Assembly: GCA_030737835.1 (NCBI GenBank)
Contig: CM060850.1
Span: forward strand, 1,701,788-1,765,787
DNA from: Acorus gramineus
Lineage: Eukaryota; Streptophyta; Magnoliopsida; Acorales; Acoraceae
Direction: 5' to 3'
DNA length: 64,000 nucleotides
Below are positions 1 through 53,750 of this stretch, piece after piece. Positions within the stretch are counted from its first letter, which is position 1, and the number at the start of each line of letters is the position of its first letter. The notes beneath the pieces were generated by a model. The model did not search any database. It worked only from the letters and a program-made list of their open reading frames with translations, and had not been told where the DNA came from. A program made the position numbers and the translations under genes.

Positions 1-260
1 TTCATCATGGGGGAGTATGCCTATTCATGGGGGTACGTCTCCGATGGATTCATGTGTATGTCTCGGATTCATGGGCCGATATGGAGTATGTCTCCCATTC
101 ATGAAGGAGTATGATCTCGGATTCATGGCATTTCTCATATTCATTGGGGGAGTATGGTCAGGGATTCATCATGGGGGAGTCTGCCTATTCATGGATATGT
201 CTTAGATTCATGGGGGTACGTCTCCGATGGATTCGTGTGTATCGATGGTATCTCCGATTG

Positions 261-741
261 ATGGAACCGACGATCACAGCTTTCGATAATATCTCCGATT
301 CAGAGAAATTGATGGATCGGACGACGGAGAAGCCCCAGAAGTCGACGAAGCGATGGAAGACCCACGACGAGCAGAGAATCTACTCCACCAAGCTTTTACA
401 CGCCCTCCGGCATGTGCGGTAGAGATCGGCGGGGCCTCCGCGGCCGCGGGAGGCCCGGGAGGCGGTGGACCAGGTATTGGCGACAGAGGCGAAGGGGAGG
501 ACGAGGTGGAGCCAGGCGATCCTCTAGAGCCGGATCCGGACGAGGAACCGGTGTCGGCAACGATTCTGGCCAGGAAATCAAAGGCTCAGAAGGCGATGCC
601 GGCGATGGAGAGGAAGTTGAGGGTGCTCGAGAGGATCGTCCCTGACTGCCGGAGGTTGTCGTTTACAGTGCAGAGGAGATCTCCAACTACATAGCGGCGT
701 TGGAGATGCACGTGAAGGAGGACGTCTTGGAAATGTTCTAA
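261..741 (+). pseudogene. bHLH147-150/AIF-like gene fragment, type A copy 1
   Basis: GC-rich island reading from ATG at 261: Met-Glu-Pro-Thr-Ile, then KRWKTHDEQRIYSTKLLHAL, which matches the conserved N-terminal block of the plant atypical bHLH proteins AtbHLH147-150 (ATBS1-interacting factors). These are non-DNA-binding nuclear HLH proteins that modulate brassinosteroid and growth signalling. Further on, in other frames, come the A-K-G-R-T-R-W-S block and the HLH helix ERKLRVLERIVPDCRRLSF. Lesions: a CAG-to-TAG stop at 420-422, a 9-bp in-frame deletion, a 13-bp deletion near 553, and a one-base shift between the two helices. Helix 2 and the end (YIAALEMH, stop 739-741) remain readable in a shifted frame. 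Not a functional gene. The family assignment rests on motif memory, not on a search. Confidence 0.8.
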
Positions 742-2917
742 GAATTCCATTAAGGTTCGCAAGGGGGTATATAATCTTGGATTCATTGGGGTTATGTCTG
801 CGATTCATAGGTGGCTACATCTCAGATTAATGGATGAGCACATCTCAAAATAATGGGGGAGTATCTCTAGGATTCATGGGGGAGCATGGTTAGAGTTTCA
901 TGGTGTGTATCGGAATCATGGAGGAGTATCTGTATGTATCCGATGCATTGGGGGTATGTGTCAGATTCATGGATTCATGGGTATGTCGTAGATTCAAGGG
1001 GGGCATGTTTTGGATTCATGGGGGAGTGTCGCGTATTCATACTCTCTTATTCATGAGGGGAGAATGGTCTTAGATTTGTGAGAGAGTATGTCTTGGACTC
1101 AAGGGGGAGTGTCAGGGTTTCAAGATAGGGTATACCGAAGGTTCATGGAAGGATATCTCGAATTCATGAGAAGAGTATAGTCTCAAATTCAGGGAATACT
1201 ATGTCTTATATTAATGAGGGGTATGTCTCGAATTTTTTGATGTATGTCTCGAATTCATGAGCAGGTAGGTATGTCTTAGATTCAAATAGTATTATGTCTT
1301 ATATTAACGAGGGGTATGTCTTGAATTTGTGAGGGGAATATGTCTCGATTCGGGGAGGGTTGTTATGTATCAGATTTATGGTCCCGGATTTATGGCGGAG
1401 TACATCTCCTATTCGAGGGGTTTATGTCCTGGATTCATGGAGGAGCATGCCTCATATTCATGGGGGAGTATGTCTCACATTCATAGGTATGTCACGAATT
1501 CATGAGTATGTCTCCGATGGATTCATGTGTATGTCTCGGATTCATGGACCGGAATGTTTCAGATTCATGGGAGGAGTATTTCTAGGATTCATTGGATAGT
1601 ATGTCTCAGATTCAAGGTTGGATTCATTGGGGGGCGGGAGCTATGTCTGCCATTCATGAGGGAATATCATCTCAGATTCATGGCATTTCTCAAATTCATG
1701 GTAAAATGTTAGATTCAAGGGAGAGTATGTCTCCAACTCAAGGGGGGAGTATGGTCTTAGATTCATGGGTATGTCTCCGATGGACTCATGCGTATGTCTT
1801 AGATTCATGGACCGGTATGGTTTAGATTCATGGGAGAAGTATTTCTAGGATTCATTGGGTAGTATGTCTCAGATTCAAGGTTTGGATTCATGGGGGTGAC
1901 TATGTCTCCCATTCAAAAGGAAATATGATCTCGGATTCATGACATTTCTCAAATTCATGGTAAGATGTTAGATTCAATGGGTATGTCTCTGATTCAAGGG
2001 GGAGTAAGGTCTCAAATTCATGGGGCTTATGCCACGGATTCATGGTGGGGTACGTCTCGGATTAATGGGAGAGTATCTTGGATTCATGGGGGGGTGTCAC
2101 GTATTCATACTCTCTTATTCATGGGATTCATGGGGATTATGTCTCGGATTCATGGTGGGGTACGTCTCAAATTAATGGGGGAGTATCTTGGATTCATGAG
2201 GGTGTGTCGCGTATTCATACTCTCTTATTCATGGGGGGAGAGTGGTCTCAAATTCGTGGGAGAGTATGTCTTGGAATCATGGGGGAGTGTCAGGTATTCA
2301 TGATAGGGTACATCGCAGATTCATGATAGGATATGTCTCGGATTCATGGAGAAGTATGGTCTCAGATTCAGGGAGTACCATGTCTTATATTAATGAGGAG
2401 TCTGTCTCGAATTTTTTGTTGGGTATGTCACGGATTCAAAGGTATATCTCAGATTCATGTGGGGTATGTCTCTGATGGATTCATGGGTATGTCTCGAATT
2501 CATGGCCAGGTAGGTATGTCTTAGATTCATGAGAGAGTATGTCTCGGATTCATGATCATGAGAGTGTATGTCTCGGATTCATGATCGGATTAATAGGGGG
2601 AGTATGTCTCCCATTCATGAGGGAGTACGATGTCGGATTCATGGAATTTCTCGGATTCATGATATGGTATTGGATTCCTAAGTAGTATGTCTCGAATTAA
2701 AGGGGGGAGTATGGTCTCAGATTCAGGGGTGTTATGTCTTGTATTCATGGGTGGCTATGTCTCGGATTCATGGGGCGGTCAATCCCAGATTAATGGGGTA
2801 TCATGTCTAGGATTCATGGGGGATTATGGTCAGGGATTGATGGTATGTATCAGAATCGGGAAGTATGTCTTGGATTCATGGCAGTGGGTTGGGGGGTTCT
2901 CGGGTTTATACCCATGA

Positions 2918-3032
2918 ATCCGAGACATACCCATGAATTCGAGACATACTCCCCCCATGAATCCGGGATATACCCCTCATGAATCCGAGACATACCCCCG
3001 CATGAATCCGGATTCATGCGGGGGTATGTCTC
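2918..3032. repeat. Inverted monomer cluster with perfect 46-bp palindrome, unit 1
   Basis: From about 2918 to 3009 the satellite monomers run in the opposite orientation (CCCATGAATCCGAGACAT). At 2987-3032 they meet the direct monomers in a perfect palindrome of 23-bp arms with no loop (centre at 3009/3010; right arm begins GGATTCATGCGGGGG). Confidence 0.9.
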
Positions 3033-4562
3033 AGATTCATGGGGGTATGTCCAGGATTCACGGGGGAGTATGTCTCGAATTCATGGGTATGTCTCGGATT
3101 CATAAGCGGGTATTTCTCAAATCCATGGGGGGAGTATTTCTTGGATTCATGGGGGAGAATGCCTCGGATTCATGATCGCATTCATGGGGAGAGTATATCT
3201 CCCATTCATTAGGGAGTATGATCTCAAATTCATGACATTTCCCGGGTTCATGGTATGGTCTTGGATTCACGGGGGAGTTATGTCTCCGATTCAACGTAGA
3301 TATAGTCTCGGATTCATTGGGGTTATGTATCCAATTCATACATAGCTATGTCTCGGATTCACGGAGGAGTACATCTCAGGTTGATGGGGAGTATGTCTAG
3401 GATTCATGGGGGAGTATGGTTAAAGCTTCATGGTATATATTAGAATCATGGAGGAGTATCTCTCGGATTCGTGTGGGGTATGTTTCCGATTGATGGGGGG
3501 TATGTCTTAGATTCATGTGGGGGTAAGTATCGGATTCATGGGTATGTATGTCTCGAATTCATGGGTATATCACATATTCATGGAGGGTATGTCTTGGATT
3601 CTTGGGGAAGTGTCGCGTATTCATACTCTCTTATTTATGGGGGAGAATGGTCTCAGATTCATGGGAGAGTATGTCTTTGATTCATGGGGGTGTGTCACGG
3701 ATTCATGACAAGGTACGTCGCAAATTCATGGTAGGATATGTCTCGGATTCATGAGGGGAGTATGGTCTCAAATTCCAAGAGTATTATGTCTTATATGAAT
3801 GAGGGGAATGTCTTGAATTTGTGGGGGGAGTATGTCTCGGATTCATGGGGGGAGGGGTGGGTGGGTTATGTATCAGATTCATAGTCCCGGATTTGTGGCG
3901 GAGTACGTCTCCGATTCGAGGGGGTTATGGCTCAGATTCGTTGGGGGAGCATGCCTCATATTCATGGGGGAGTATGTCTATTCATGGGTACGACACGGAT
4001 TCACGGGTATGTCTTGGATTAAAATTCATGGGTATGACACGGATTCACGGGTATGTCTTGGATTCATAGGTATGTCTTAGATTCATGGGGGTTTGTCTCT
4101 CATGGATTAATGTGTATGTCTCATATTCATGGGCCGGTATGGAGTATGTCTCCCATTCATGAGGGAGTATGATCTCAGATTTATGGCATTTCTCAAATTC
4201 AAGGTACGGTGTCAGATTCAATAGAGAGTAAGTCTCGGATTCAAGGGGGGAGTATGGTCAGGGATTCATCATGGGGGAGTATGCCTATTCATGGGTATGT
4301 CACGGATTCATGGGTATGTCTTAGATTCATGGGGGCATGTCTCCGATGGATTCATGTGTATGTCTCGGATTCATGGGCCGATATGGAGTATGTCTCCCAT
4401 TCCTGAAGGAGTACGATCTCGGATTCATGGCATTTCTCATATTCATGGGGGGAGTATTGTCAGGGATTCATCATCGGGGAGTATGCCTATTCATGGGCAT
4501 GTCTTAGATTCATGTGGGTACGTCTCCGATGGATTCATGTGTATCGATGGTATCACCGATTG

Positions 4563-5041
4563 ATGGAACCGACGATCACAGCTTTCGATAATATCTCTGA
4601 TTCAGAGAAATTGATGGATCGGACGACGGAGAAGCCCAGAAGTCGACGAAGCGATGGAAGACCCACGACGAGGAGAGAATCTACTCCAAGCTTTTACACG
4701 CCCTCCGGCAAGTGCGGCAGAGATCGGCGGGGCCTACGCGGCCGCTGAAGCCGCGGGAGGCCCGGGAAGCGGTGGACCAGGTCTTGGCGACAAAGGCGAA
4801 GGGGAGGACGAGGTGGAGCGAGGCGATCCTCTTGAGCCGGATCCTGACGAGGATCCGGTGCCGGAAGAGGCGGCCGGCAACGATTCTGGCCAGGAAATCA
4901 AAGGCTCAGAAGGCGATGCCGGCGATGGAGAGGAAGGTGAGGGTGCTCGAGAGAATCGTCCCCGACTGCCGGGCAGAGATCTCCGACTACATAGCGGCGT
5001 TGGAGATGCACGTGAAGGAGGATGTCTTGGAAATGTTCTAA
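4563..5041 (+). pseudogene. bHLH147-150/AIF-like gene fragment, type B copy 1
   Basis: Second island of HOR unit 1 with the same ATG context (4563). One C is lost in the CCCC run near 4635, shifting the N-terminal frame, and three bases are lost near 4689. From the L-H-A-L-R-Q-V-R block onward one frame is open to TAA at 5039-5041. It covers EAREAVDQVLATKAKGRTRW, the RKRR segment, ERKVRVLERIVPDC and EISDYIAALEMHVKE. A ~20-bp loop segment present in type A is missing, which happens to keep this copy in frame. No ATG lies at the head of the open part, so it is unlikely to be translated as is. It diverges clearly from type A, so A and B are older duplicates than the HOR amplification. Confidence 0.8.
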
Positions 5042-5544
5042 GAATTCCATTAAGGTTCGCAAGGGGGGATATAATCTTGGATTCATTGGGGTTATGTCTG
5101 CGATTCATAGGTGGCTATATCTCAAATTCATGGATGAGCACATCTCAAAATAATGGGAGAGTATCTCTAGGATTCATGGGGGAGTATGGTCAGAGTTTCA
5201 TGGTATGTATCGGAATAATGGAGGAGAATATCATGGATTCATGTGCGGTATGTCTCCGATGCAAGGGGGGTATGTCTTAGATTCATGTGAGGGTGTGTGT
5301 CAGATTCTTCGATTCATGGGTATGTCCCAGATTCAAGGGGGGCATGTTTTGGATTCATGGGGGAGTGTTGCGTATTCATACTCTCTTGTTCATGGGGGGA
5401 GAATGGTCATAGATTTGTGGGAGAGTATGTCTTGGATTCAAGGGGTAGTGTCAGGGTTTCATGATAGGGTACGTAGTGGATTCATGGTAGGATATGTCTC
5501 AGATTCGAGTATGCTCTCAAATTCAAAGAGTATTGTCATATATG

Positions 5545-5715
5545 TTTTTTTTTTTTTTTTTTGATGGAAAGGGTAGGCAGTCACCTTTGTATTAAGAAAG
5601 GCAAAAGCCCAAATTGAGAGTTCCATATCATTTTAAGAAAACCCGAAAAGGAAGAGGGTGAGAGGACTAGAAAACCCGACTCCCAACCAAAGTCGGCAAT
5701 CATTCCCCACCTCAT
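5545..5715 (-). mobile_element. 3' end of a poly(A) retroelement (LINE-like) inside the satellite, unit 1
   Basis: A run of 18 T followed by 'gatggaaagggtaggcag' and about 150 bp of non-satellite sequence interrupts a monomer. On the minus strand this reads as a 3' tail ending in poly(A), typical of a truncated LINE or SINE insertion. An imperfect 8-bp target duplication candidate flanks it (tcatatat at 5536, tcatttat at 5712). No reverse transcriptase is present. The exact family is not recognised. Confidence 0.65.
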
Positions 5716-6355
5716 TTATATTAATGAGGGGTATGTCTTGAATTCGTGGGGGGAGTATGTCTCGGATTCATAGGGGGGTAATGTATCACACTTATGATCC
5801 CGGATTTATGGCGGAGTACGTCTCCGTTTAGAGAGGGTTGTGTCTCAGATTCGTTGGGGGTGCATGCCACGTATTCATGGGGGAGTATGTCTATTCATAG
5901 GTATGTCTTAGATTCATGAGGGTATGCCTCTGATGGATTCATGTGTATGTCTCAGATTCATGGGCCGGTATAGATTATGTCTCCCATTCATGAGGGAGTA
6001 TGATCTCAGATTTATGGCATTTCTCATATTCAAGGTATGATGTTAGATTCAATAGTGAGTATGTCTCGGATTCAAGGGGGGAGTATGGTCAGGGATTCAT
6101 CATGGGGGAGTATGCCTATTCATGGGGGTACGTCTCCGATGGATTCATGTGTATGTCTCGGATTCATGGGCCGATATGGAGTATGTCTCTCATTAATGAA
6201 GGAGTATGATCTCGGATTCATGGCATTTCTCATATTCATTGGGGGAGTATGGTCAGGGATTCATCATGGGGGAGTATGCCTATTCATGGATATGTCTTAG
6301 ATTCATGGGGGTACGTCTCCGATGGATTCGTGTGTATCGATGGTATCTCCGATTG

Positions 6356-6836
6356 ATGGAACCGACGATCACAGCTTTCGATAATATCTCCGATTCAGAG
6401 AAATTGATGGATCGGACGACGGAGAAGCCCCAGAAGTCGACGAAGCGATGGAAGACCCACGACGAGCAGAGAATCTACTCCACCAAGCTTTTACACGCCC
6501 TCCGGCATGTGCGGTAGAGATCGGCGGGGCCTCCGCGGCCGCGGGAGGCCCGGGAGGCGGTGGACCAGGTATTGGCGACAGAGGCGAAGGGGAGGACGAG
6601 GTGGAGCCAGGCGATCCTCTAGAGCCGGATCCGGACGAGGATCCGGTGTCGGCAACGATTCTGGCCAGGAAATCAAAGGCTCAGAAGGCGATGCCGGCGA
6701 TGGAGAGGAAGTTGAGGGTGCTCGAGAGGATCGTCCCTGACTGCCGGAGGTTGTCGTTTACAGTGCAGAGGAGATCTCCAACTACATAGCGGCGTTGGAG
6801 ATGCACGTGAAGGAGGACGTCTTGGAAATGTTCTAA
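6356..6836 (+). pseudogene. bHLH147-150/AIF-like gene fragment, type A copy 2
   Basis: Same length and lesions as the island at 261-741: the TAG stop after the L-R-H-V-R motif, the 13-bp deletion and the frame shift between the two helices. Base differences are few, for example GAT against GAA just before the deletion. It was copied with the HOR unit. Confidence 0.8.
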
Positions 6837-9015
6837 GAATTCCATTAAGGTTCGCAAGGGGGTATATAATCTTGGATTCATTGGGGTTATGTCTGCGATT
6901 CATAGGTGGCTACATCTCAGATTAATGGATGAGCACATCTCAAAATAATGGGGGAGTATCTCTAGGATTCATGGGGGAGCATGGTTAGAGTTTCATGGTG
7001 TGTATCGGAATCATGGAGGAGTATCTGTATGTATCCGATGCATTGGGGGTATGTGTCAGATTCATGGATTCATGGGTATGTCGTAGATTCAAGGGGGGCA
7101 TGTTTTGGATTCATGGGGGAGTGTCGCGTATTCATACTCTCTTATTCATGAGGGGAGAATGGTCTTAGATTTGTGAGAGAGTATGTCTTGGACTCAAGGG
7201 GGAGTGTCAGGGTTTCATGATAGGGTACATCGCAGGTTCATGGAAGGATATCTCGAATTCATGAGAGGAGTATAGTCTCAAATTCAGGGAATACTATGTC
7301 TTATATTAATGAGGGGTATGTCTCGAATTTTTTGATGTATGTCTCGAATTCATGAGCAGGTAGGTATGTCTTAGATTCAAATAGTATTATGTCTTATATT
7401 AACGAGGGGTATGTCTTGAATTTGTGAGGGGAATATGTCTCGATTCGGGGAGGGTTGTTATGTATCAGATTTATGGTCCCGGATTTATGGCGGAGTACAT
7501 CTCCTATTCGAGGGGTTTATGTCCTGGATTCATGGAGGAGCATGCCTCATATTCATGGGGGAGTATGTCTCACATTCATAGGTATGTCACGAATTCATGA
7601 GTATGTCTCCGATGGATTCATGTGTATGTCTCGGATTCATGGACCGGAATGTTTCAGATTCATGGGAGGAGTATTTCTAGGATTCATTGGATAGTATGTC
7701 TCAGATTCAAGGTTGGATTCATTGGGGGGCGGGAGCTATGTCTGCCATTCATGAGGGAATATCATCTCAGATTCATGGCATTTCTCAAATTCATGGTAAA
7801 ATGTTAGATTCAAGGGAGAGTATGTCTCCAACTCAAGGGGGGAGTATGGTCTTAGATTCATGGGTATGTCTCCGATGGACTCATGCGTATGTCTTAGATT
7901 CATGGACCGGTATGGTTTAGATTCATGGGAGAAGTATTTGTAGGATTCATTGGGTAGTATGTCTCAGATTCAAGGTTTGGATTCATGGGGGTGACTATGT
8001 CTCCCATTCAAAAGGAAATATGATCTCGGATTCATGACATTTCTCAAATTCATGGTAAGATGTTAGATTCAATGGGGAGTATGTCTCTGATTCAAGGGGG
8101 AGTAAGGTCTCAAATTCATGGGGCTTATGCCACGGATTCATGGTGGGGTACGTCTCGGATTAATGGGAGAGTATCTTGGATTCATGGGGGGGTGTCACGT
8201 ATTCATACTCCCTTATTCATGGGATTCATGGGGATTATGTCTCGGATTCATGGTGGGGTACGTCTCAAATTAATGGGGGAGTATCTTGGATTCATGAGGG
8301 TGTGTCGCGTATTCATACTCTCTTATTCATGGGGGGAGAGTGGTCTCAAATTCGTGGGAGAGTATGTCTTGGAATCATGGGGGAGTGTGAGGTATTCATG
8401 ATAGGGTACATCGCAGATTCATGATAGGATATGTCTCGGATTCATGGAGAAGTATGGTCTCATATTCAGGGAGTACCATGTCTTATATTAATGAGGAGTC
8501 TGTCTCGAATTTTTTGTTGGGTATGTCATGGATTCAAAGGTATATCTCAGATTCATGTGGGGTATGTCTCTCATGGATTCATGGGTATGTCTCGAATTCA
8601 TGGCCAGGTAGGTATGTCTTAGATTCATGAGAGAGTATGTCTCGGATTCATGATCATGAGAGTGTATGTCTCGGATTCATGATCGGATTAATAGGGGGAG
8701 TATGTCTCCCATTCATGAGGGAGTACGATGTCGGATTCATGGAATTTCTCGGATTCATGATATGGTATTGGATTCCTAAGTAGTATGTCTCGAATTAAAG
8801 GGGGGAGTATGGTCTCAGATTCAGGGGTGTTATGTCTTGTATTCATGGGTGGCTATGTCTCGGATTCATGGGGCGGTCAATCCCAGATTAATGGGGTATC
8901 ATGTCTAGGATTCATGGGGGATTATGGTCAGGGATTGATGGTATGTATCAGAATCGGGAAGTATGTCTTGGATTCATGGCAGTGGGTTGGGGGGTTCTCG
9001 GGTTTATACCCATGA

Positions 9016-9130
9016 ATCCGAGACATACCCATGAATTCGAGACATACTCCCCCCATGAATCCGGGATATACCCCTCATGAATCCGAGACATACCCCCGCA
9101 TGAATCCGGATTCATGCGGGGGTATGTCTC
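9016..9130. repeat. Inverted monomer cluster with perfect 46-bp palindrome, unit 2
   Basis: Copy of the 2918-3032 structure in the second HOR unit; the palindrome spans 9085-9130 and its arms are unchanged. Confidence 0.9.
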
Positions 9131-10660
9131 AGATTCATGGGGGTATGTCCAGGATTCACGGGGGAGTATGTCTCGAATTCATGGGTATGTCTCGGATTCA
9201 TAAGCGGGTATTTCTCAAATCCATGGGGGGAGTATTTCTTGGATTCATGGGGGAGAATGCCTCGGATTCATGATCGTATTCATGGGGAGAGTATATCTCC
9301 CATTCATTGGGGAGTATGATCTCAAATTCATGACATTTCCCGGGTTCATGGTATGCTCTTGGATTCACGGGGGAGTTATGTCTCCGATTCAACGTAGATA
9401 TAGTCTCGGATTCATTGGGGTTATGTATCCAATTCATACATAGCTATGTCTCGGATTCACGGAGGAGTACATCTCAGGTTGATGGGGAGTATGTCTAGGA
9501 TTCATGGGGGAGTATGGTTAAAGCTTCATGGTATATATTAGAATCATGGAGGAGTATCTCTCGGATTCGTGTGGGGTATGTTTCCGATTGATGGGGGGTA
9601 TGTCTTAGATTCATGTGGGGGTAAGTATCGGATTAATGGGTCTGTATGTCTCGAATTCATGGGTATATCACATATTCATGGAGGGTATGTCTTGGATTCT
9701 TGGGGAAGTGTCGCGTATTCATACTCTCTTATTTATGGGGGAGAATGGTCTCAGATTCATGGGAGAGTATGTCTTTGATTCATGGGGGTGTGTCACGGAT
9801 TCATGACAAGGTACGTCGCAAATTCATGGTAGGATATGTCTCGGATTCATGAGGGGAGTATGGTCTCAAATTCCAAGAGTATTATGTCTTATATTAATGA
9901 GGGGTATGTCTTGAATTTGTGGGGGGAGTATGTCTCGGATTCATGGGGGGAGGGGTGGGTGGGTTATGTATCAGATTCATAGTCCCGGATTTGTGGCGGA
10001 GTACGTCTCCGATTCGAGGGGGTTATGGCTCAGATTCGTTGGGGGAGCATGCCTCATATTCATGGGGGAGTATGTCTATTCATGGGTACGACACGGATTC
10101 ACGGGTATGTCTTGGATTAAAATTCATGGGTATGACACGGATTCACGGGTATGTCTCAGATTCATAGGTATGTCTTAGATTCATGGGGGTATGTCTCTCA
10201 TGGATTAATGTGTATGTCTCATATTCATGGGCCGGTATGGAGTATGTCTCCCATTCATGAGGGAGTATGATCTCAGATTTATGGCATTTCTCAAATTCAA
10301 GGTACGATGTCAGATTCAATAGAGAGTAAGTCTCGGATTCAAGGGGGGAGTATGGTCAGGGATTCATCATGGGGGAGTATGCCTATTCATGGGTATGTCA
10401 CGGATTCATGGGTATGTCTTAGATTCATGGGGGCATGTCTCCGATGGATTCATGTGTATGTCTCGGATTCATGGGCCGATATGGAGTATGTCTCCCATTC
10501 CTGAAGGAGTATGATCTCGGATTCATGGCATTTCTCATATTCATGGGGGGAGTATTGTCAGGGATTCATCATCGGGGAGTATGCCTATTCATGGGCATGT
10601 CTTAGATTCATGTGGGTACGTCTCCGATGGATTCATGTGTATCGATGGTATCACCGATTG

Positions 10661-11142
10661 ATGGAACCGACGATCACAGCTTTCGATAATATCTCTGATT
10701 CAGAGAAATTGATGGATCGGACGACGGAGAAGCCCAGAAATCGACGAAGCGATGGAAGACCCACGACGAGCAGAGAATCTACTCCACCAAGCTTTTACAC
10801 GCCCTCCGGCAAGTGCGGCAGAGATCGGCGGGGCCTACGCGGCCGCCGAAGCCGCGGGAGGCCCGGGAAGCGGTGGACCAGGTCTTGGCGACAGAGGCGA
10901 AGGGGAGGACGAGGTGGAGCCAGGCGATCCTCTTGAGCCGGATCCTGACGAGGATCCGGTGCCGGAAGAGGCGGCCGGCAACGATTCTGGCCAGGAAATC
11001 AAAGGCTCAGAAGGCGATGCCGGCGATGGAGAGGAAGGTGAGGGTGCTCGAGAGAATCGTCCCCGACTGCCGGGCAGAGATCTCCGACTACATAGCGGCG
11101 TTGGAGATGCACGTGAAGGAGGATGTCTTGGAAATGTTCTAA
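10661..11142 (+). pseudogene. bHLH147-150/AIF-like gene fragment, type B copy 2
   Basis: Counterpart of the island at 4563-5041. It has the same missing C in the N-terminal part, but keeps the three bases (ACC) that copy B1 lost, so it is slightly closer to the presumed ancestor. The frame is open from the L-R-Q-V-R motif through the HLH region to TAA at 11140-11142. Confidence 0.8.
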
Positions 11143-11643
11143 GAATTCCATTAAGGTTCGCAAGGGGGGATATAATCTTGGATTCATTGGGGTTATGTCT
11201 GCGATTCATAGGTGGCTATATCTCAAATTCATGGATGAGCACATCTCAAAATAATGGGAGAGTATCTCTAGGATTCATGGGGGAGTATGGTCAGAGTTTC
11301 ATGGTACGTATCGGAATAATGGAGGAGAATATCATGGATTCATGTGCGGTATGTCTCCGATCCAAAGGAGGTATGTCTTAGATTCATGTGAGGGTGTGTC
11401 AGATTCATGGATTAATGGGTATGTCCCAGATTCAAGGGGGGCATGTTTTGGATTCATGGGGGAGTGTCGCCTATTCATACTCTCTTGTTCATGGGGGGAG
11501 AATGGTCATAGATTTGTGGGAGAGTATGTCTTGGATTCAAGTGGTAGTGTCAGGGTTTCATGATAGGGTACGTAGTGGATTCATGGTAGGATATGTCTCA
11601 GATTCGAGTATGCTCTCAAATTCAAAGAGTATTGTCATATATG

Positions 11644-11810
11644 TTTTTTTTTTTTTTGATGGAAAGGGTAGGCAGTCACCTTTGTATTAAGAAAGGCAAA
11701 AGCCCAAATTGAGAGTTCCATATCATTTTAAGAAAACCCGAAAAGGAAGAGGGTGAGAGGACTAGAAAACCCGACTCCCAACCAAAGTCGGCAATCATTC
11801 CCCACCTCAT
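11644..11810 (-). mobile_element. 3' end of a poly(A) retroelement (LINE-like) inside the satellite, unit 2
   Basis: Same insertion at the same place in HOR unit 2, with 14 T instead of 18. It must therefore predate the HOR duplication. Confidence 0.65.
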
Positions 11811-12191
11811 TTATATTAATGAGGGGTATGTCTTGAATTCGTGGGGGGAGTATGTCTCCGATTCATAGGGGGGGTAATGTATCACACTTATGATCCCGGA
11901 TTTATGGCGGAGTACGTCTCCGTTTAGAGAGGGTTGTGTCTCAGATTCGTTGGGGGTGCATGCCACGTATTCATGGGGGAGTATGTCTATTCATAGGTAT
12001 GTCTTAGATTCATGAGGGTATGCCTCTGATGGATTCATGTGTATGTCTCAGATTCATGGGCCGGTATAGATTATGTCTCCCATTCATGAGAGAGTATGAT
12101 CTCAGATTTATGGCATTTCTCATATTCAAGGTATGATGTTAGATTCAATAGTGAGTAAGTCTCGGATTCAAGGGGGGAGTATGGTCAGGGA

Positions 12192-14303
12192 TTCATCATG
12201 GGGGAGTATGCCTATTCATGGGGGTACGTCTCCGATGGATTCATGTGTATGTCTCGGATTCATGGGCCGATATGGAGTATGTCTCCCATTCATGAAGGAG
12301 TATGATCTCGGATTCATGGCATTTCTCATATTCATTGGGGGAGTATGGTCAGGGATTCATCATGGGGGAGTCTGCCTATTTATGGATATGTCTTAGATTC
12401 ATGGGGGTATGTCTCCGATGGATTCGTGTGTATCGATGGTATCTCCGATTGATGGAACCGACGATCACAGCTTTCGATAATATCTCCGATTCAGAGAAAT
12501 TGATGGATCGGACGACGGAGAAGCCCCAGAAGTCGACGAAGCGATGGAAGACCCACGACGAGCAGAGAATCTACTCCACCAAGCTTTTACACGCCCTCCG
12601 GCATGTGCGGTAGAGATCGGCGGGGCCTCCGCGGCCGCGGGAGGCCCGGGAGGCGGTGGACCAGGTATTGGCGACAGAGGCGAAGGGGAGGACGAGGTGG
12701 AGCCAGGCGATCCTCTAGAGCCGGATCCGGACGAGGATCCGGTGTCGGAAGAGGCGGCTGGCAACGATTCTGGCCAGGAAATCAAAGGCTCAGAAGGCGA
12801 TGCCGGCGATGGAGAGGAAGTTGAGGGTGCTCGAGAGGATCGTCCCTGACTGCCGGAGGTTGTCGTTTACAGTGCAGAGGAGATCTCCAACTACATAGCG
12901 GCGTTGGAGATGCACGTGAAGGAGGACGTCTTGGAAATGTTCTAAGAATTCCATTAAGGTTCGCAAGGGGGTATATAATCTTGGATTCATTGGGGTTATG
13001 TCTGCGATTCATAGGTGGCTACATCTCAGATTAATGGATGAGCACATCTCAAAATAATGGGGGAGTATCTCTAGGATTCATGGGGGAGCATGGTTAGAGT
13101 TTCATGGTGTGTATCGGAATCATGGAGGAGTATCTGTATGTATCCGATGCATTGGGGGTATGTGTCAGATTCATGGATTCATGGGTATGTCGTAGATTCA
13201 AGGGGGGCATGTTTTGGATTCATGGGGGAGTGTCGCGTATTCATACTCTCTTATTCATGAGGGGAGAATGGTCTTAGATTTGTGAGAGAGTATGTCTTGG
13301 ACTCAAGGGGGAGTGTCAGGGTTTCATGATAGGGTACATCGCAGGTTCATGGAAGGATATCTCGAATTCATGAGAGGAGTATAGTCTCAAATTCAGGGAA
13401 TACTATGTCTTATATTAATGAGGGGTATGTCTCGAATTTTTGATGTATGTCTCGAATTCATGAGCAGGTAGGTATGTCTTAGATTCAAATAGTATTATGT
13501 CTTATATTAACGAGGGGTATGTCTTGAATTTGTGAGGGGAATATGTCTCGATTCGGGGAGGGTTGTTATGTATCAGATTTATGGTCCCGGATTTATGGCG
13601 GAGTACATCTCCTATTCGAGGGGTTTATGTCCTGGATTCATGGAGGAGCATGCCTCATATTCATGGGGGAGTATGTCTCACATTCATAGGTATGTCACGA
13701 ATTCATGAGTATGTCTCCGATGGATTCATGTGTATGTCTCGGATTCATGGACCGGAATGTTTCAGATTCATGGGAGGAGTATTTCTAGGATTCATTGGAT
13801 AGTATGTCTCAGATTCAAGGTTGGATTCATTGGGGGGCGGGAGCTATGTCTGCCATTCATGAGGGAATATCATCTCAGATTCATGGCATTTCTCAAATTC
13901 ATGGTAAAATGTTAGATTCAAGGGAGAGTATGTCTCCAACTCAAGGGGGGAGTATGGTCTTAGATTCATGGGTATGTCTCCGATGGACTCATGCGTATGT
14001 CTTAGATTCATGGACCGGTATGGTTTAGATTCATGGGAGAAGTATTTGTAGGATTCATTGGGTAGTATGTCTCAGATTCAAGGTTTGGATTCATGGGGGT
14101 GACTATGTCTCCCATTCAAAAGGAAATATGATCTCGGATTCATGACATTTCTCAAATTCATGGTAAGATGTTAGATTCAATGGGGAGTATGTCTCTGATT
14201 CAAGGGGGAGTAAGGTCTCAAATTCATGGGGCTTATGCCACGGATTCATGGTGGGGTACGTCTCGGATTAATGGGAGGGTGTCACGTATTCATACTCTCT
14301 ATT
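12192..14303. repeat. HOR unit 3, truncated at the array edge
   Basis: Only the first ~2.1 kb of the unit is present: island A3 and about 1.3 kb of following monomers. Its island A keeps 13 bp that units 1 and 2 have lost, so it is the least decayed A copy. Just before the edge the order differs from units 1 and 2: roughly 25 bp between the final 'attaatggga' and 'gtgtcacgtattcatactc' motifs is missing. Unrelated sequence follows. Confidence 0.85.
12452..12945 (+). pseudogene. bHLH147-150/AIF-like gene fragment, type A copy 3
   Basis: Longest A island (494 bp). It retains the 13 bp (gaagaggcggctg) missing in the two other A copies and shared with the B copies, so the middle of the gene is in its original frame here. 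The TAG stop after L-R-H-V-R and the frame shift between the helices are present as in the other A copies. Confidence 0.8.
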
Positions 14304-14824
14304 TAATGGTCAATCAGTGTATTGATTTGGTTGTTCTAGGTTCAACAGGTACATCACACAGAAAGTCAGTAAGCATGGATGGATTTCAGATATGAAATGT
14401 TAATTCAGCTGCATATGAAATGGGCGACAATTTTCTTAATTGCTTAAAGTTTAGATTCACCAGGTACTCATGCATAAAGAAAGTCAGTAAGCATGGCTGA
14501 ATTTCAGATATGTAACGTTAATTCAGCTGCATATGAAATGGGCGACAATTTTCTTCATTGTTTAAAGATTGGGTCACTCTCATCTTGGAGGAGGAGTCCC
14601 CTTCATTGTTTATTGGTAACAATAGGATGGGGTGAGGTTGTTCAGGCTTGTTCCCTTTCATGGAAGTTTTTTAATCACATACTTTATATACTTACAGTGG
14701 TCCGAATGATAAATTAGGGGGGTTAGTCATGTAATGAGTTAGTTCCTGATTTTTTGTACAATGTTACTTTTCTTTCATTTTTGTAAGGAGATCCTGCATC
14801 TCCTTCTTTTCGGGGGTTTCTATT
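14304..14824. repeat. Non-satellite spacer with a ~118-bp tandem duplication
   Basis: Immediately right of the satellite edge. Two diverged copies of a ~118-bp segment (about 14338-14455 and 14456-14575) share 'gaaagtcagtaagcatgg' at 14361 and 14479 and 'atatgaaatgggcgacaat'. I see no coding potential; the remainder to 14824 is unassigned. Confidence 0.7.
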
Positions 14825-15101
14825 AGTAAAATTCTTCAATGATAACCATCATATGATGATTTTATTTTACATGAAACAGCATGGATTCACAAAAGATGAA
14901 AGTTCAATTGACTCCTAAAATGTGGAGTCAAATGCCCAATAGTGCCAATGTAATGGAAAAGGTATGAGCATTCAGGAACATACATGAATTATTATTTTCC
15001 CGAAAACCTACTGCCATGAATACACTGATAATATAAACTTCTTATGGAGAAAGTACAAGCTCCAATAAAATTTAAAATAAAGCAACTTGGAAAATATTGA
15101 T
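14825..15101. repeat. Direct repeat, left copy (~280 bp)
   Basis: Left member of a pair whose right copy lies at 15477-15758, 652 bp away. The two copies flank the SYP71-like exons. Confidence 0.9.
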
Positions 15102-15197
15102 GCAAGGTAATGTACAATATTTGTATTCCACAATTCCAAGTTGTGTTAATATAAAACAAAATTGGAAAAAGAAATAGGCAATAGAATATGTCCTGAC

Positions 15198-15394
15198 CTT
15201 AGCATCGATCTCATCCATCAAGGGAACTTGCCTGTCCATTTCCTGAGAATATTACAAATATATAAATCGATCTCAATATATTTTGGATTGCATGCAGTTC
15301 CAGAATAAAATTGCAGATAATTTACCTCATTCATGTCATGAGCCATGTTCTTCATGGTGTCAAGTCCTTCTGCTATAACATCCAATCCTTGATC
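15198..15394 (-). pseudogene. SYP71: SYP71-like Qc-SNARE, two-exon fragment
   Basis: Minus strand, two exons with proper splice signals. Exon 15394-15326 encodes DQGLDVIAEGLDTMKNMAHD plus MNE after an AG acceptor and before a GT donor. Exon 15242-15198 encodes EMDRQVPLMDEIDAK, again between AG and GT. Both match the start of the SNARE motif of plant SYP71/72/73, Qc-SNAREs of the plasma membrane and ER. The rest of the SNARE motif and the C-terminal membrane anchor should follow at lower coordinates but are absent before the satellite begins. The N-terminal exons are not seen upstream either. I call it a captured or truncated fragment; the two exons themselves show no internal damage. Confidence 0.85.
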
Positions 15395-15476
15395 CTGCAT
15401 ATAGGTCATTTGTGTTCCCCTGAGTAAACTCATGCATCTGACATGATATCGGTAACATGCGACTCAAAATAATGAG

Positions 15477-15758
15477 AGTAAAATTCTTCAATGATAACCA
15501 TCATACGATGCCTTTATTTTACATGAAACAACATGGATTCACAAAATATGAAAGTTCAACTGAATCCAAAAATGTGGAGCAAAATGCCCAATAGTGCCAA
15601 TATAATGGAAAAGGTATGAGCAATCAGGAACATACATGAATTATTATTTTCCCGAAAACCTACTGTCATGTCATGAATACACTGATATTATAGACTTCTT
15701 ATGGAGAAAGTACAAGCTCCAATAAAATTTAAAATAAAGCAACTTGGCAAATATCGAT
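15477..15758. repeat. Direct repeat, right copy (~280 bp)
   Basis: Diverged copy of 14825-15101, with a 5-bp internal TCATG duplication and scattered substitutions. A short echo, 'gatcagacattcta', follows at 15757 and again near 15830. Confidence 0.9.
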
Positions 15759-15843
15759 CAGACATTCTATTTGGGGTTAGCTCATACTTCTAAAAGTAAA
15801 TCTTCCCAAGACATTGATAAATTGCCAAGATCAGACATTCTAC

Positions 15844-15974
15844 CTGGGATAATTTGTGCTTCAGCACTGCGGCACCATCAGCAGAGTTATCATATTCCAA
15901 GAACCTCATATTTTTCAATGGGGAAGCTGAGCACTGGCATAAACGTATTCTTCATCCTGGCATTTGACAATATC
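15844..15974 (-). pseudogene. Decayed exon-like fragment, identity unknown
   Basis: Minus strand segment bounded by an AG acceptor and a GT donor. It reads DIVKCQDEEYVYASAQLPH and then, after a frame change, MRFLEYDNSADGAAVLKHKL. No single frame is open across it, so it looks like a decayed exon. I do not recognise the protein. Confidence 0.4.
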
Positions 15975-16279
15975 CTGCAAGAAACCACTATTACATGTCA
16001 GTTGCACACATGAAATCATATTAAATTATCATCTAGTTCATCTACATTGATTAAAATAATAAAGAGATCATAAAAAAGAGTCATGTATTCATATAATCTA
16101 GGCACTGACAATGTTCAAAAAGATTAAAATATGTATCTCAGATAAGAATCCCACACCTGTGATATATCCAAATGTTTTTAGTAGAACCCCATAATCAAGC
16201 ATGATGTAATTCAAGAATTATGATGTATAACACTATGCACAATATTCAGAATTAATCAATGGTCCTACAATGATTATTG

Positions 16280-16435
16280 ATAAGGAATGCCTTACAGAAT
16301 AACAAAGAAATTCACTTGATTTCCCACTCCAATGGATCCTCTTTGTGAAAATGGATTATGTCCCTTCTCAATAAGCAAGTCGCCAAATCTTTTAACATAC
16401 TGATCACAGAGGACCGGCTGTTTTCAATATAACAA
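16280..16435 (-). other. Possible coding remnant, identity unknown
   Basis: Minus strand stretch that can be read as DQYVKRFGDLLIEKGHNPFS after an AG acceptor near 16420, preceded by a stop in that frame. Coding character is only suggested by the composition of the peptide. It may belong with the neighbouring exon-like pieces at 15844 and 16833. Confidence 0.25.
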
Positions 16436-16832
16436 ATCCTAGCCAGGATATCAGAAAAAAATTTCCTTTATTGTTTTTATCAACCTCTAATGAATCGAGT
16501 CCGAGGAGGTTGACTTGCCTCATGCCCTTCTCAATTTACCACAAATCAAATTGCATCACCAGGTAAACAATCACAAGACGAGTATCAATCCCTCCCCCTA
16601 TAGATCACCAGCCCTGACCCCCGTCTGCCTGATTTTGAAATAAGACCTACTTTTAATAACAAATAAGAATATCAAAAAGAAAATAGATATGCTATGGTTT
16701 TAATTCATGATTGAAAATGAAATCAAAGTAGACTCACAAGACCATTGCTTATTTCAAACCAAGGGTTCCCCTTTCTCAACCTACTATAATGGCATAAAAA
16801 AAAACAGACCCTGTTTGACATGAATTGATTAC

Positions 16833-17005
16833 TTTCTTAAGCAAGGGAACCACCACAAGCGAGTGGTTTTCATGTATTATTGCACACTCTCTCATAGACT
16901 TATCTATACAGCGCTCGGAGCCACCAAGGTTTCTCCTGGAAATTGAAATCGTTGAGGTGATCACATGAAACGATGGCCTTATCTTCTCAAGTATTACTGC
17001 TTTGC
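16833..17005 (-). other. Exon-like segment, identity unknown
   Basis: Minus strand, 173 nt between a consensus acceptor (aaatgcag) and donor (gtaatc), open throughout in one frame with phase 2 at the start and 0 at the end. It reads K-A-V-I-L-E-K-I-R-P-S-F, then SRRNLGGSERCIDKSMREC and ENHSLVVVPLLKK. It looks like a real or recently lost exon of an unrecognised gene. No promoter or partner exon is certain. Confidence 0.4.
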
Positions 17006-17923
17006 CTGCATTTGAAGTGGATAAAAAGGAAATCAGTATTCTTTGAAGCTGTGAGTGAAATTGACTATATAAACACATTGCAAATGATGGACCAACAAAT
17101 GAACCATATTCCTCTGACTGAAATTACAGGATAACAGTCACAATCTAAACTAGTGCCCACATCATAATGTTTTCATTAGAAAGTTTGAAGTAGGCTTTCC
17201 TCATAATTTTTTAAGTTCGTTTTGGTAGTCAAATATTGTGGTCAAATGGTTCCTATCAAAGTTGTGGCAGGATCACAGTTGGATTCCTTGGTCCACAAGG
17301 ACCCATAATGTAAACCGTGATCTTCTGTTTCCATTCAAAATATTTATCACGTTATGTTCCAGCTTTATTGAAAGATAAAATTATTACTCGCTGTTTTTAC
17401 TTTCCTATTTTACTACTACTGAAAATTCTGGGTCTGACATTTGCTAAAAGACAGCATTACATATATTCCTGCCTTCATCAATAGATATTAATTGATTGAT
17501 ATGTTTTTACTCAGTCACCAATCACCATGCCAGATATTATATGTCATTTATAAATGTGCTCGTCTTGTTAGAGATTTGATGATACTGGTGAAAAATTTGT
17601 ATTTTAGTGATTTTAATTTTTTACCTGCAAGTCCTAGCCATGTGATCATTTTAAATTTTTTCATAAATGTACACGGTCCACCACAAACTCTCTAAATTAC
17701 AATGACTAGCATGTTTCACATGTGTGGATCATTGTTAATGACTAACAAGGTTTGTCTACCTCATGGAAGAGCTTTCCACAAATCTAGCCTTTGTAAATGT
17801 TTTTTAAAAAAAATCACAGGAACATATCAATTGATGAAATTGTACCAATTGCAGTCTTGATACATAATAATACCTTAAAAAGTGATCTCAAGAAAAATTA
17901 GATATCAATAACCAAAAAAAACA

Positions 17924-18165
17924 AACCTTGAAGAGCAAGTGATTGCGTGGTGTTCCTCCTCCGGGAGGGGTTCCGGAGACCACCAGCCGTATCAGCGATA
18001 GAACCCTCCCCTTCTCGCTGGACTCCCTCAGCCTCCGAGCAAGGTCAGGAATTCCGATCCCTTCAATCGATGAGTTTCCGCCGCCGAGCCCTTCGTCGCA
18101 ACCATCTCCTCCATTTCTCTCTGCAATGGTCGAGATGGGGTTTGGTTTAGATTGCTTGTCTCTCC
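17924..18165 (-). other. GC-rich first-exon-like segment, identity unknown
   Basis: Minus strand GC-rich stretch reading GIPDLARRLRESSEKGRVLS then LIRLVVSGTPPGGG, ending at a possible AAG|GTTTGT donor. The nearest ATG (Met-Glu-Glu-Met-Val-Ala-Thr-Lys) lies in a different frame, so a frameshift is likely if the two belong together. Not recognised. It may be the 5' end of the same lost gene as 16833-17005. Confidence 0.35.
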
Positions 18166-18337
18166 AAATGGTCCGGAGAAACATATGGGGTATGATGATA
18201 TTCTCCCTCTCTTTCAACAATCGTCATCTGATTTATTTTTTTTATGAACGGTCCGGATGGCTTTATGAGGGGTGAATCATAGGGTACCCTAAATCCAAAG
18301 ATCAACAGAAATCAGGACCGAATCAATCAAAACTCAC

Positions 18338-18690
18338 GTTGTAGGTGACGTCGGGCTTCTCGGACTGGCTGAGAAGTGAAATGCTCGAGTCGGCCTCGGG
18401 CGGGAGGACGTCGACGAGGGCGTTCGAGTGGCGGTGGAGCGCGATCGACGCCGAAGGCTTCAAGAGCTCCCTGTTGATGGTGCTAAGGATCCTCACGTAG
18501 TAGTTGGAGCCCGTCGTAGACCCGACGATCCCGTTGTTCTGATCGACCATCTCCATGAACTGCCCGATCACGAGCGGCACCGACTGGATCCGCTTCCCTC
18601 TTGAAGTTCTTCTGCTCATCCTTCACGTACTCCTCCTGGATCCCGAGGAACTCGATTTGCCGCCGGAGCTCGATCGCCGTTGTTAGATTT
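18338..18690 (-). pseudogene. RPT3: RPT3 (26S proteasome ATPase) 5' exon fragment, frameshifted
   Basis: Minus strand. It reads [20 protein letters not shown], then, in another frame, [20 protein letters not shown] and on to the [13 protein letters not shown] motif, ending exactly at a GTGAGT donor (18338|18337). This is the coiled-coil and OB-fold N-terminal part of RPT3 (regulatory subunit 6B), one of six AAA ATPases of the 19S proteasome base. A deletion of about 26 nt removes the L-L-R-A-Q-E-E-V region and breaks the frame. No AAA-domain exons follow at lower coordinates. A pseudogene or captured 5' fragment. A GA microsatellite at 18691-18709 sits where its 5' leader would be. Confidence 0.85.
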
Positions 18691-18709
18691 AGAGAGAGAG
18701 AGAGAGAGA
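18691..18709. repeat. (AG)n microsatellite
   Basis: A short run of AG dinucleotides adjoining the RPT3 fragment, as in many plant 5' leaders. Confidence 0.9.
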
Positions 18710-18936
18710 CCTCAACAGGGGCTCTCTGCGTGCTTTTATGGATGGGTTTTAGGCGGTGTAATGACTGGGTTGAAGCTTTTTATTTGGGCCTCGCTTAAAC
18801 CCGGCCCATGATCCTGGGTTTCCGTGGATACATCTCACGTGATTGTTCTTTCAGCGAAAAATAAAAAATAAAGGGTAAATGCATTTTGATCCCTCGAGTC
18901 TGGAAAACCTACAGTGACACCTCTTGTATTTTAAAA

Positions 18937-19187
18937 GGATAATGTTACATCCAGTTCTATTTCCAGCCTCGATTCCAGTTTGTATGTCTTTCGAATTTTT
19001 TAAAAATAGTATATTTCATCTAATGAGATACATACTTTTATAAAAAATGAATTATATACTCCAATAAATTGCATGGATGTATTTATAGAAAATGTAAAAA
19101 AATTCTTTCAAAGCATATGCCTTGTTAACAAGAGCATATGCGTCGATAGATATAGGGTTGAAAATAGATCTGAGTATAACAGCGCCC
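18937..19187. mobile_element. Mutator-type MITE with 9-bp target duplication
   Basis: A 251-bp element flanked by perfect 9-bp direct repeats ATTTTAAAA (18928-18936 and 19188-19196). Ends are imperfect inverted repeats of about 30 bp (left GGATAATGTTACATCCAG; right, reversed, GGGCGCTGTTATACTCAG). No coding capacity. TSD length and TIR form fit non-autonomous Mutator-like elements. Similar internal sequence (attttttaaaaatagtata, ctaatgaggtata) recurs near 54.0-54.4 kb and 62.95-63.22 kb. Confidence 0.75.
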
Positions 19188-19196
19188 ATTTTAAAA

Positions 19197-22050
19197 ATAC
19201 CCACTTACACTCCATATTATTAAATCACATGGTTATATAAGAAAAATGATAAAACAAAAAAAATTATCGTTACTTGAAATATATGAATGGTTTATATTAA
19301 TTAAGATATATGGGTGGTAAATTTGAGATTTAAGAATGCTTAATATGTATTTTTATTCTTTAAAGCACATGGATGATAAGTATGAAATATTATTTTGAGT
19401 GAGAAAGTAATAGTTTCTAGTTATTGATTTTCCTATTTAAATGAGAAGCATAAGTGTATGTTTTTAAATTACAGGGGTGTAAGTGTATATTATTAAAATA
19501 TAGAGAGTGTTTTAATAGGTTTCATAAATTTGAGAGATGCAATGCATTGTAGGCCCGTCTATCCCCACCAACACATTTTCTTAATACACCACTGGTCTGT
19601 ACCCACCACCTACCACTTACCAAGTGATTGAGCCCACCATGTGATAAATATATCTTCCCTAAACCACTAACCCCACCATACCCTACTTTCAAAAACCTTT
19701 TTCTCTCTCTTCCCTGAACCCATCTCATTTTGAAGTCTTCTCTTTCTCCCGACTCACCCCTCTTGTCGACCTCCAACCACTTCTCGGTGCCGCCCATCGT
19801 TCGTCTCGTGCCGCCTGCTGTCGTCCCGTGTCGCCGGTGAAAATTGATCACTCCATCAACGACCACCATTTCCTCCGTCGTCCTGTGCCGCCGGCGAAGA
19901 GGACCACTGCTCCCAGACCTCTCTGCACCTCCCATAAGTTCATGTCAGCATTTTGTTTTTATATTTTTGGATATTCAAATGCCAAAGATTACATGGAGAA
20001 ATGAATGACATGTTTTTCTTTATTTGGAGAAGGCGGCTAAAGATTGCTAAAGGGGAGACGGAGATAGCCATTTTAGATTGGGGTTTAATTTAGGATAAGA
20101 ATAAAATTTAGGTTACATTAGGGGATGAGCTGAGAGTATTAGGGCTATAATAACTTCTGAAATTTGAAAACATTTAAAAATGCATTTGATAATTTTGAAA
20201 ATTAGGCTTTTGGAGGAAGTATAATCTTTTTTGAATAATGGAGGAATCATATAATAAATCCAAAATTATTTTCAAACATAGACAATGATCCCTGTTTTCT
20301 AAGTCAAAATATAATTTTTAATTGTATAAAATAGCTTTTCAAAAAGTTATATATAAAAAAAAGCAAATTCTCAATACTCAATTTCAAATTCTAACTAAAA
20401 AAAATGTTACATCAAAATCTAATTGTATCCCAACTTTTGATGTCATACATGGGAATTTATCTTTTATTGTGTGATCTTCAAATAAATGCATATGAAAACT
20501 AAAAGTAGGTTTTTATTAAGTCCCTACCTAGAATAACATATATTTATTAAAAAATAAAATATTGCTCAATATATAAACAAAATGAATTATTTATAATTTT
20601 CTAATGTGGTGTATTGTAGGTTAGGGAGAACTAGAGACTTTAAACAATGATGATCTGAGTGTAATGGCATGATGACATCAACCATTTCTTTAGCACCCCT
20701 TTGGGTAGTACCATATACTATTTCAGGATGGATAGCTATTATAATATATATAAAAAAGTCATTTACTATTTAATTGTGTTTTTAATTATTTTCATTGATA
20801 AACATATGATGAATTTTGTTGTTTGGTTGATCATGAATTAATAAAAAATAAAAGATGAATATGACGTGGATAAGAATTTATAAAAGATAAAAATTGATTT
20901 GACATAAGATTCTATTTATATCAATTAAATAGATCGGATATAATAACACAATTTAAAGAGAGCTTAGAATATCAATATCAATTTATTCTTACATATACTG
21001 ACATATTTATAACTGCTTATTCATTGTGCTTATTCATTGTAACAAACAGATTCTAGACTTATTTACTTCTATTTCACACCTATTCCGCCACGCGATATGA
21101 ATTATGAAGAATAAGATTAATGGACCGACCATTCCGACCGGGTCCTACATAGTAAAAGGGCACTCTTACAATGGGAACTCTCATGACCTCTCCTCCACGT
21201 CTCTTTCATTAGGTGGGGTATGTGTCCTTGAGAATAAAAATATAATTAGAAACTAGAAAATAAAACTAATTTATCTTCCATCAACATTTCAAAAGAAATA
21301 ATTTCTTTCACTTTATCCACGAGATGGTGGGTTAGAGCTCAACTCAAATGTAATATGAAGTTAAAGAAAGCCAATTCAAATCCAATCCATCCTCAAACCT
21401 AAAAAATTCAACCCGAACTTAATATATCGTCCATTGAATTTAGTTTGGGTTGGACTAGGATTGAGTTCAAGTTTCACCTCTAAAGTATATCATTCTAAAC
21501 AATTAAAATCTTGTAAAAATCAATATAATGCTCCACATGAAGAGAAAAAAAAAGATGAAATTAATGAACATTTTTATTAAGAATATAGAAATGAAATAAT
21601 GGAAGTGATAGATTACAAGTAAAAATAAATTGAACAATTCAAATTTTATTTTATAATAAATTTTAAAAAAATTAAAATATGATTTCAGGTGCAAGTTGGG
21701 TTCAATTAAGCTTCCAGACCTTCAATCCAAACTGAACATAAATTAGATTCTAGTTACTTCAATTGAACCCGCATGCTAAAATCTCAACTCAAACTTGTTC
21801 ACATATTGTATTAGATTAAATTGAGTCGGATTCAACCCATCCAAGTTGTACCCGTATTCACATGCAAAAAGCTTTTACAAAATCCAAATAAATAAATACT
21901 TTCTCTTTAGATATCAAGTCTCATAGTCATTTCATTTCTTTTAAAAGGCACAAACACAATCCCAAAGGGCCCTTAATATATACCGATCCTGCTGTCGTTA
22001 CGTGATTCGATCATTCATGACACCTCTCTCTTCATTACCGTATCTCATCC
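19197..22050. other. AT-rich intergenic region
   Basis: No gene recognised. A GC-richer patch at about 19545-19940 has a 137-codon minus-strand frame (19935-19522) rich in Arg and Gly. It could be transposon- or pseudogene-derived but has no motif I recognise. The rest is AT-rich, with poly-A/T runs and simple sequence. Confidence 0.6.
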
Positions 22051-53702: not shown

Positions 53703-53708
53703 TTCGGG

Positions 53709-53750
53709 CCCTCTCTCTCTCTCTCTCTCTCTAGTTTTTTCTCTCTCTAA
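53709..53750. repeat. (CT)n microsatellite in the 5' leader of the bromodomain gene
   Basis: About nine CT repeats at 53712-53731, then a second CT run, just upstream of the start codon on the minus strand. Confidence 0.9.

Follow-up and report, generated by a model that had tools for sequence, protein, structure and literature searches.

We analysed a stretch of 64,000 nucleotides of the Acorus gramineus genome (contig C4, 1701788-1765787; hereafter the window) that begins in a tandem repeat array carrying five GC-rich islands related to AIF-type basic helix-loop-helix (bHLH) genes. We conclude, with a probability of roughly 0.8, that the islands are dead passengers: a piece of an intact gene on another contig (C1), together with a fragment of a long interspersed nuclear element (LINE), was captured once by a minisatellite, dispersed and then amplified.

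Structure of the array

The array occupies positions 1..14303 of the window on the forward strand, as seen with Tandem Repeats Finder (TRF) and self-BLAST. The earlier note reported an array over this interval and the array is indeed present, but these positions are only the right-hand 14.3 kb of it. The full array (array 1) continues left beyond the window, starting at ~C4:1,683,370, and extends over C4 ~1,683,370-1,716,090, or ~33 kb. TRF found units of 19-30 bp plus longer multiples across 83-14275, and the minisatellite that hosts the islands has 19-24-bp units. Self-BLAST aligned 1-8185 to 6096-14293 with 99.0% identity at an offset of 6095 bp, which gives a period of ~6.1 kb, with 2.35 repeats visible in the window. 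Head-to-tail kilobase units present in near-identical copies (6.1 kb, 99% in the window) place the array among satellites or macrosatellites. Each higher-order repeat contains two GC-rich islands, of A and B type, and the repeats are 99% identical; the A and B islands of one repeat share a block of 1.2-1.5 kb that is 85-87% alike. A composition scan of positions 1-13,000 revealed five peaks of 53-59% GC versus ~44% elsewhere. The layout described in the earlier note, five GC-rich islands, two per 6.1-kb repeat, inside a minisatellite, is thus upheld by the GC scan, TRF and self-BLAST.

All five islands are on the forward strand, and each consists of an AIF-derived part followed by a LINE tail. 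Island B0 (255..718) corresponds to the parent gene on C1 from CGATTGATGG to the GGTGAAGG junction, with two in-frame stops and deletions of 9, 13 and 4 bp. Its LINE tail (712..764, placed through the offset of 6095 bp to B1) and the AIF part have GTGAAGG in common, where they overlap. Island A1 (4557..5018; LINE tail 5012..5064) has deletions of 1, 3, 17 and 7 bp, and island B1 (6350..6813; tail 6807..6859) has two stops and deletions of 9, 13 and 4 bp. Deletions of 1, 17 and 7 bp occur in island A2 (10655..11119; tail 11113..11165), and the least deleted of the five, B2 (12446..12922; tail 12916..12968), has two stops and deletions of 9 and 4 bp.

Source of the islands

Searching the window with the parental protein (tblastn) recovered all five islands, with best E-values of 1.8e-61 (A2), 1.6e-58 (B2), 9.0e-57 (A1), 4.1e-54 (B1) and 2.9e-53 (B0). 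The best pieces score 151-196 bits. Shuffling 3-base blocks 50 times never gave more than 23.9 bits, and elsewhere in the window the top score was 21.6 bits, which rules out chance similarity. A composite island protein matches bHLH147/148/149-type proteins from many plants, with three Acorus proteins at the top (133 proteins at E <=10 among 163 candidates; Acorus best 1.2e-71); among the 120 matches listed, proteins named bHLH147/148/149 range from 2.9e-23 to 6.0e-14. The homology covers most of the protein and places the source in the AIF/bHLH147-150-like (IBH1-like) family, as the earlier note had proposed. The IBH1-like N-terminal family PF26576 is precomputed on the A. gramineus protein P0001 and the A. 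calamus protein P0002, and not on the A. gramineus protein P0003; hmmscan of these three proteins and of the composite listed no such family. The composite had no match among solved structures. AIF2, a bHLH protein that does not bind DNA, is reported to act in brassinosteroid responses (PMC7031079).

The earlier note suggested looking for the parental bHLH gene in the same genome, and this search, with the A. calamus protein as the query, located an intact locus at C1 3,760,918-3,761,490 on the minus strand; the islands do match proteins, so neither outcome that the earlier note gave as refuting it came about. The gene codes for 191 amino acids, 179/191 of which are identical to P0002, in an open frame able to make protein. 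This AIF-type gene is the source of the islands. Read from the sequence, it is preceded by a TATA-like box, TTTAAATA, and has a putative GT-AG intron in its 5' untranslated region (UTR). There is no minisatellite around the parent locus, with one motif match in 10 kb, so growth of the minisatellite from the parent's own flank was ruled out. More distant AIF-type paralogs without stops were identified on C2 (two, 70%), C43 (53%) and C3 (52%). The two C2 paralogs, at 17,571,312 and 17,700,890, are ~130 kb apart and have equal 70% similarity to the A. calamus protein. In L025, 1192 bases are read as N.

Junctions and capture

Within 398.6 Mb of sequence on 137 contigs, a DNA search with one island as the query gave 46 matches, and 40 of 52 candidates were scored, so that island counts are lower bounds. 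We identified at least 30 islands: 11 in array 1, 10 in a second array on C4 (array 2) and nine elsewhere (two on C1, one each on C2 and C3, two on C5 and three on C9), all nine within or adjoining the same minisatellite.

The 5' start is identical in 9/9 islands outside C4, at parent base 4380 (reverse-complement position), and all nine include the 5' UTR and the unspliced putative intron. Directly upstream of this start, eight of the nine have minisatellite ending like GAGAGTATG; the exception, L019, has other DNA upstream, yet retains the TCTTCTCC start. The C4 copies begin later, at parent position 4526, without the 5' UTR part. On the 3' side, seven loci and both island types of the window have the same order: parent sequence to GGTGAAGG, then ~53 bp of LINE, then minisatellite. 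Several loci show one-base variants of GGTGAAGG, and two C9 islands (8.3465 and 8.3659 Mb) stop at parent position 4824 and retain just the end of the tail.

The 53-bp piece recurs without AIF sequence, at 96-98% identity, in 12 places. The four of these that were read (on C2, C4, C5 and C9) are all LINE, with frames whose RVT_1 matches (0.00037 to 3.8e-06) all fall below the Pfam cut-off, and the piece originates inside the second LINE open reading frame (ORF2). A LINE reverse-transcriptase fragment abuts the minisatellite at L020 (C9), L049 (C5), L050 (C4) and L051 (C2), apparently at the same junction, which makes it a second sequence captured by this repeat family.

Because junctions are shared on five further contigs, a single capture lies behind all copies; as far as the junctions tell, it was a patchwork of gene piece and LINE scrap. 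The captured piece was probably taken from DNA rather than from a processed copy. We propose that, during repair or replication of the minisatellite, gene DNA would have been copied in, from just downstream of the TATA-like box, via the 5' UTR and putative intron, to three quarters of the coding sequence, followed by ~53 bp of LINE reverse-transcriptase DNA, by template switching. Such switching in break repair or replication is suggested by the three-source patchwork and by junctions that overlap by 4 and 8 bp.

Alternatively, the islands could be retrocopies, formed when LINE machinery reverse-transcribed unspliced AIF pre-mRNA, switched to LINE RNA and landed in the minisatellite. The AIF and LINE pieces do run in one direction and meet at the 8-bp overlap, LINE copies adjoin the same minisatellite, and the 5' end is close to the expected transcription start. 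On the other hand, the putative intron is retained in all nine islands outside C4, and the LINE piece, internal to ORF2, leads straight into minisatellite with neither poly(A) nor a LINE 3' end after it. Thus the islands do not have the features of processed pseudogenes, and a processed retrocopy appears disfavoured; we consider the retrocopy route in general unlikely. Two considerations tell against our preference for genomic DNA: the intron is predicted from its GT-AG borders, and if it is not an intron RNA reverse transcription would be an equally good source; and a 5' end near the expected transcription start is also what RNA-derived copies may have.

Spread and amplification

The minisatellite extends far beyond the gene-bearing part. 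Counted by pattern with at most one mismatch, the monomer has 732 matches genome-wide versus 0 for the control, and among the matches listed 69 are exact, on 11 contigs. Searches with island DNA and the A. calamus protein found no islands in the monomer places at C7 5.69-5.72 Mb, C4 8.52-8.55 Mb, C23 and C41. The repeat family is therefore the larger entity, with the gene as its passenger, and the satellite was not built around that gene. The proposal of the earlier note that a gene was trapped in a satellite and co-amplified is retained for capture and amplification, and modified in that a LINE piece was also taken, copies occur on five further contigs and the satellite has an existence apart from the gene.

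In the tree the C4 copies form one group (100/98), which the C3 copy joins (100/99). The B types (99/98, 11 rows) and the A types (87/96, 8 rows) separate, and the C4 copy at 1,686,688 falls outside both, as an early outlier. The order of C1, C9 and the parent is poorly supported (68/3), the bootstrap being not fully settled. Within the window, A and B islands diverge by 3.7-4.4%, slightly less than their flanks (5.2-7.5%).

The C3 and C4 arrays have a common left flank (97-99%) that is a decayed copia element (SH3_retrovirus 7e-10). The C2 (L028:1-4955) and C5 (L027:5911-10000) arrays are 95% identical over 3.9 kb or more of flank, the frames of which we take, by motif, to resemble retropepsin and gag of long terminal repeat (LTR) elements; Pfam gave no match for them. 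Since two sets of arrays have common flanks, the module travelled together with the transposon-rich DNA around it. The AIF island of L028 runs antisense to the retropepsin- and gag-like flank frames. CACTA/TAGTG-like hexamers were found but had no consistent placement, and CACTA ends were rejected.

Array 2 (~34 kb) duplicates array 1 in inverted orientation, including 5.5 kb of right flank: window positions 14418..19929 recur inverted beside array 2, at C4 1,835,905-1,841,400, with 97.7% identity over 5.5 kb. After capture, the module was dispersed to other contigs; on C4 it comprises A and B types, is arranged in the 6.1-kb higher-order repeats and occurs in a second, inverted array.

The monomer may derive from copia integrase sequence. 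The copia element at the left edge of array 1 (C4:1,683,250-1,683,370; L010:1251-1370) holds ATGGGATGGAGTATGTCTGAGATTC, whose alignment spans most of the monomer, and none of 4000 random 120-bp segments matches the monomer with as high a score. When 10 kb of real array is the target, the same copia stretch is unexceptional, with 12/300 reaching its score.

Decay of the copies

Of the islands found, 23 are long enough for comparison with the parent, the remaining seven being shorter or rearranged. A stop or frameshifting indel is present in 23/23, so that an intact captured gene is ruled out for every long copy. The ratio of nonsynonymous to synonymous substitution rates (dN/dS), computed for 8 of the 23, is 1.03 for C9 versus C1 copies, 0.73-0.99 for these versus C4 copies and 0.61-0.78 for the parent versus seven copies. 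Substitutions from the parent, in seven copies, are dominated by C-to-T (29-40 per copy, versus 7-10 T-to-C), taking the parent as ancestral. The C-to-T rate in these copies is 11-20% of CG, 7-16% of CHG and 3-7% of CHH sites, and an excess in CG and CHG is the mark expected of methylated DNA. We infer that the islands are methylated, silent, under little or no constraint, and without the parental promoter.

Several observations sit uneasily with dead passengers. The dN/dS of C3 versus the parent is 0.38, of C3 versus C4 copies 0.46-0.68 and of other pairs 0.5-0.8. For C4 A versus B types it is 0.25-0.43. These values are below the 1 expected without constraint, so a degree of constraint is conceivable, although the changes are few. 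At C4 1,686,688 an open frame of 231 amino acids covers parent residues 6-151, the copy at C4 1,844,745 lies in a 229-amino-acid frame, and A types retain 137-147 amino acids. The suggestion of island methylation, moreover, comes from the mutation pattern, read with the parent as ancestral.

The arrays might instead, as the earlier note proposed, be a source of small RNAs that silence or tune the parental AIF gene in trans, as Su(Ste) acts on Stellate; Su(Ste) repeats are a small-RNA source. Of the 791 21-base words in the presumed transcribed region of the parent, 207 have an exact copy in the fetched arrays and 56 have one in the C4 arrays alone, versus a mean of 0.3 and a maximum of 9 for 200 random window segments. 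The inverted arrangement of the two arrays, together with the palindrome that each 6.1-kb unit contains (2914..3103 and again 9012-9201, where self-BLAST aligns 192 bases to their own reverse complement at 94%), could favour double-stranded RNA, and the methylation-like decay is compatible with a locus targeted by small interfering RNAs. Against this, the capture began beyond the TATA-like box, on its downstream side, and therefore brought no parental promoter along, the intact parent is well conserved, with 179/191 residues identical in A. calamus, the C4 arrays are ~125 kb apart and so make no simple hairpin, and the palindrome consists of minisatellite, not AIF sequence. We consider silencing in trans quite unlikely. 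In a fuller version the arrays would be a copy-number-variable satellite silencer, island RNA giving 21-24-nt small RNAs and repeat gain or loss tuning a brassinosteroid-linked growth regulator; the prospect of this is slimmer still.

Open frames and public gene models

The proteins P0001 and P0003 are publicly named 'Transcription factor'. P0001 contains 137 20-residue words, and no single frame of either C4 array has all of them, the best having 95, so the gene model was built over array copies. P0001 was therefore rejected as the parent. Residues 34-139 of P0003 match two C9 islands ~4.5 kb apart; its first 33 residues are unplaced. We infer that both models, placed on islands, are annotation artefacts. 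That islands encode truncated HLH proteins competing with full-length HLH factors is most improbable, despite open frames of 137-231 amino acids in some copies and these two public entries from the island family, given the stop or frameshift relative to the parent in all 23 long copies, the loss of most of the conserved CRRLSFPVLIEE stretch from A types, and the division of P0001 between frames and of P0003 between two islands.

Other features of the window

The A-type units alone carry an insert on the minus strand (5545..5716, also ~11,645-11,811), identified by alignment, with poly-T at its start; judged by eye it looks like the reversed 3' end of a truncated non-LTR retrotransposon. A protein search with minisatellite frames from window 1965-2303 gave no match. 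The right flank contains a 282-bp direct duplication (14825-15101 and 15477-15758; 92%, self-BLAST), and a 237-bp unit is duplicated head to tail at 40916-41399 (99%, TRF). We also identified genes for a two-RRM protein (42010-42828), a PPR protein like At2g01860 (43811-45286; nearest public relative in A. calamus, 95%) and a glycosyltransferase of family 92 (57554-59245, minus strand). With these ordinary genes at 42010-59245 beside it, the array lies in gene-bearing DNA.

Comparison with known systems and significance

On a limited literature search, we are aware of no captured transcription-factor gene in a plant satellite. The main text of PMC10282084, PMC10281966 and PMC9300462 contains no mention of satellite, minisatellite or bHLH. 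The remark in the earlier note that it knew of no such satellite needs narrowing, since a transcription-factor gene in a repeat unit has precedent in D4Z4/DUX4 (PMC2965761). The human D4Z4 unit at 4q35 contains a retrotransposed DUX4 that is normally repressed (PMC2965761, PMC8350899). The likeness is a tandem unit carrying a transcription-factor gene copy. The D4Z4 gene, however, is retrotransposed and can be expressed, whereas the examined AIF copies are broken, truncated and joined to LINE, with a minisatellite of 19-24-bp units around them, and those outside C4 retain the putative intron.

Stellate and Suppressor of Stellate of Drosophila are likewise repeated gene-derived elements, silenced via the PIWI-interacting RNA pathway (PMC7874207, PMC3335654); in Acorus there is a single source gene, which lies elsewhere in the genome. 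CACTA elements of Chenopodium are plant repeats carrying captured host-gene fragments, including flower-development genes, with satellite arrays in other elements (PMC8978399). There, a DNA transposon holds the fragment (80 bp for AP2) or the array, whereas here the gene piece is inside a tandem array and amplified with it, without consistent CACTA ends. Retrotransposon tandem repeats are reported to be a frequent origin of satellites (PMC7004042); similarly, the Acorus arrays adjoin decayed retrotransposons and the monomer resembles the copia integrase stretch by array 1, although here the monomer origin is only a lead. The architecture is like that of D4Z4, Stellate and gene-carrying CACTA elements, yet we file it under none of them because the source was probably a genomic piece and the setting is a minisatellite.

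The A. gramineus lineage is placed as sister to all other monocots (PMC10281966, PMC10282084). Its arrays provide a well-resolved gene acquisition by a repeat array: from one assembly one can read where the gene came from, how it is joined on either side, the LINE patch, the dispersal to other contigs and the higher-order amplification. Decayed satellite islands among annotated A. gramineus 'transcription factors' distort gene-family counts. With many 21-base words exactly matching the parent, regulation of a source gene by its satellite-trapped pieces is directly testable.

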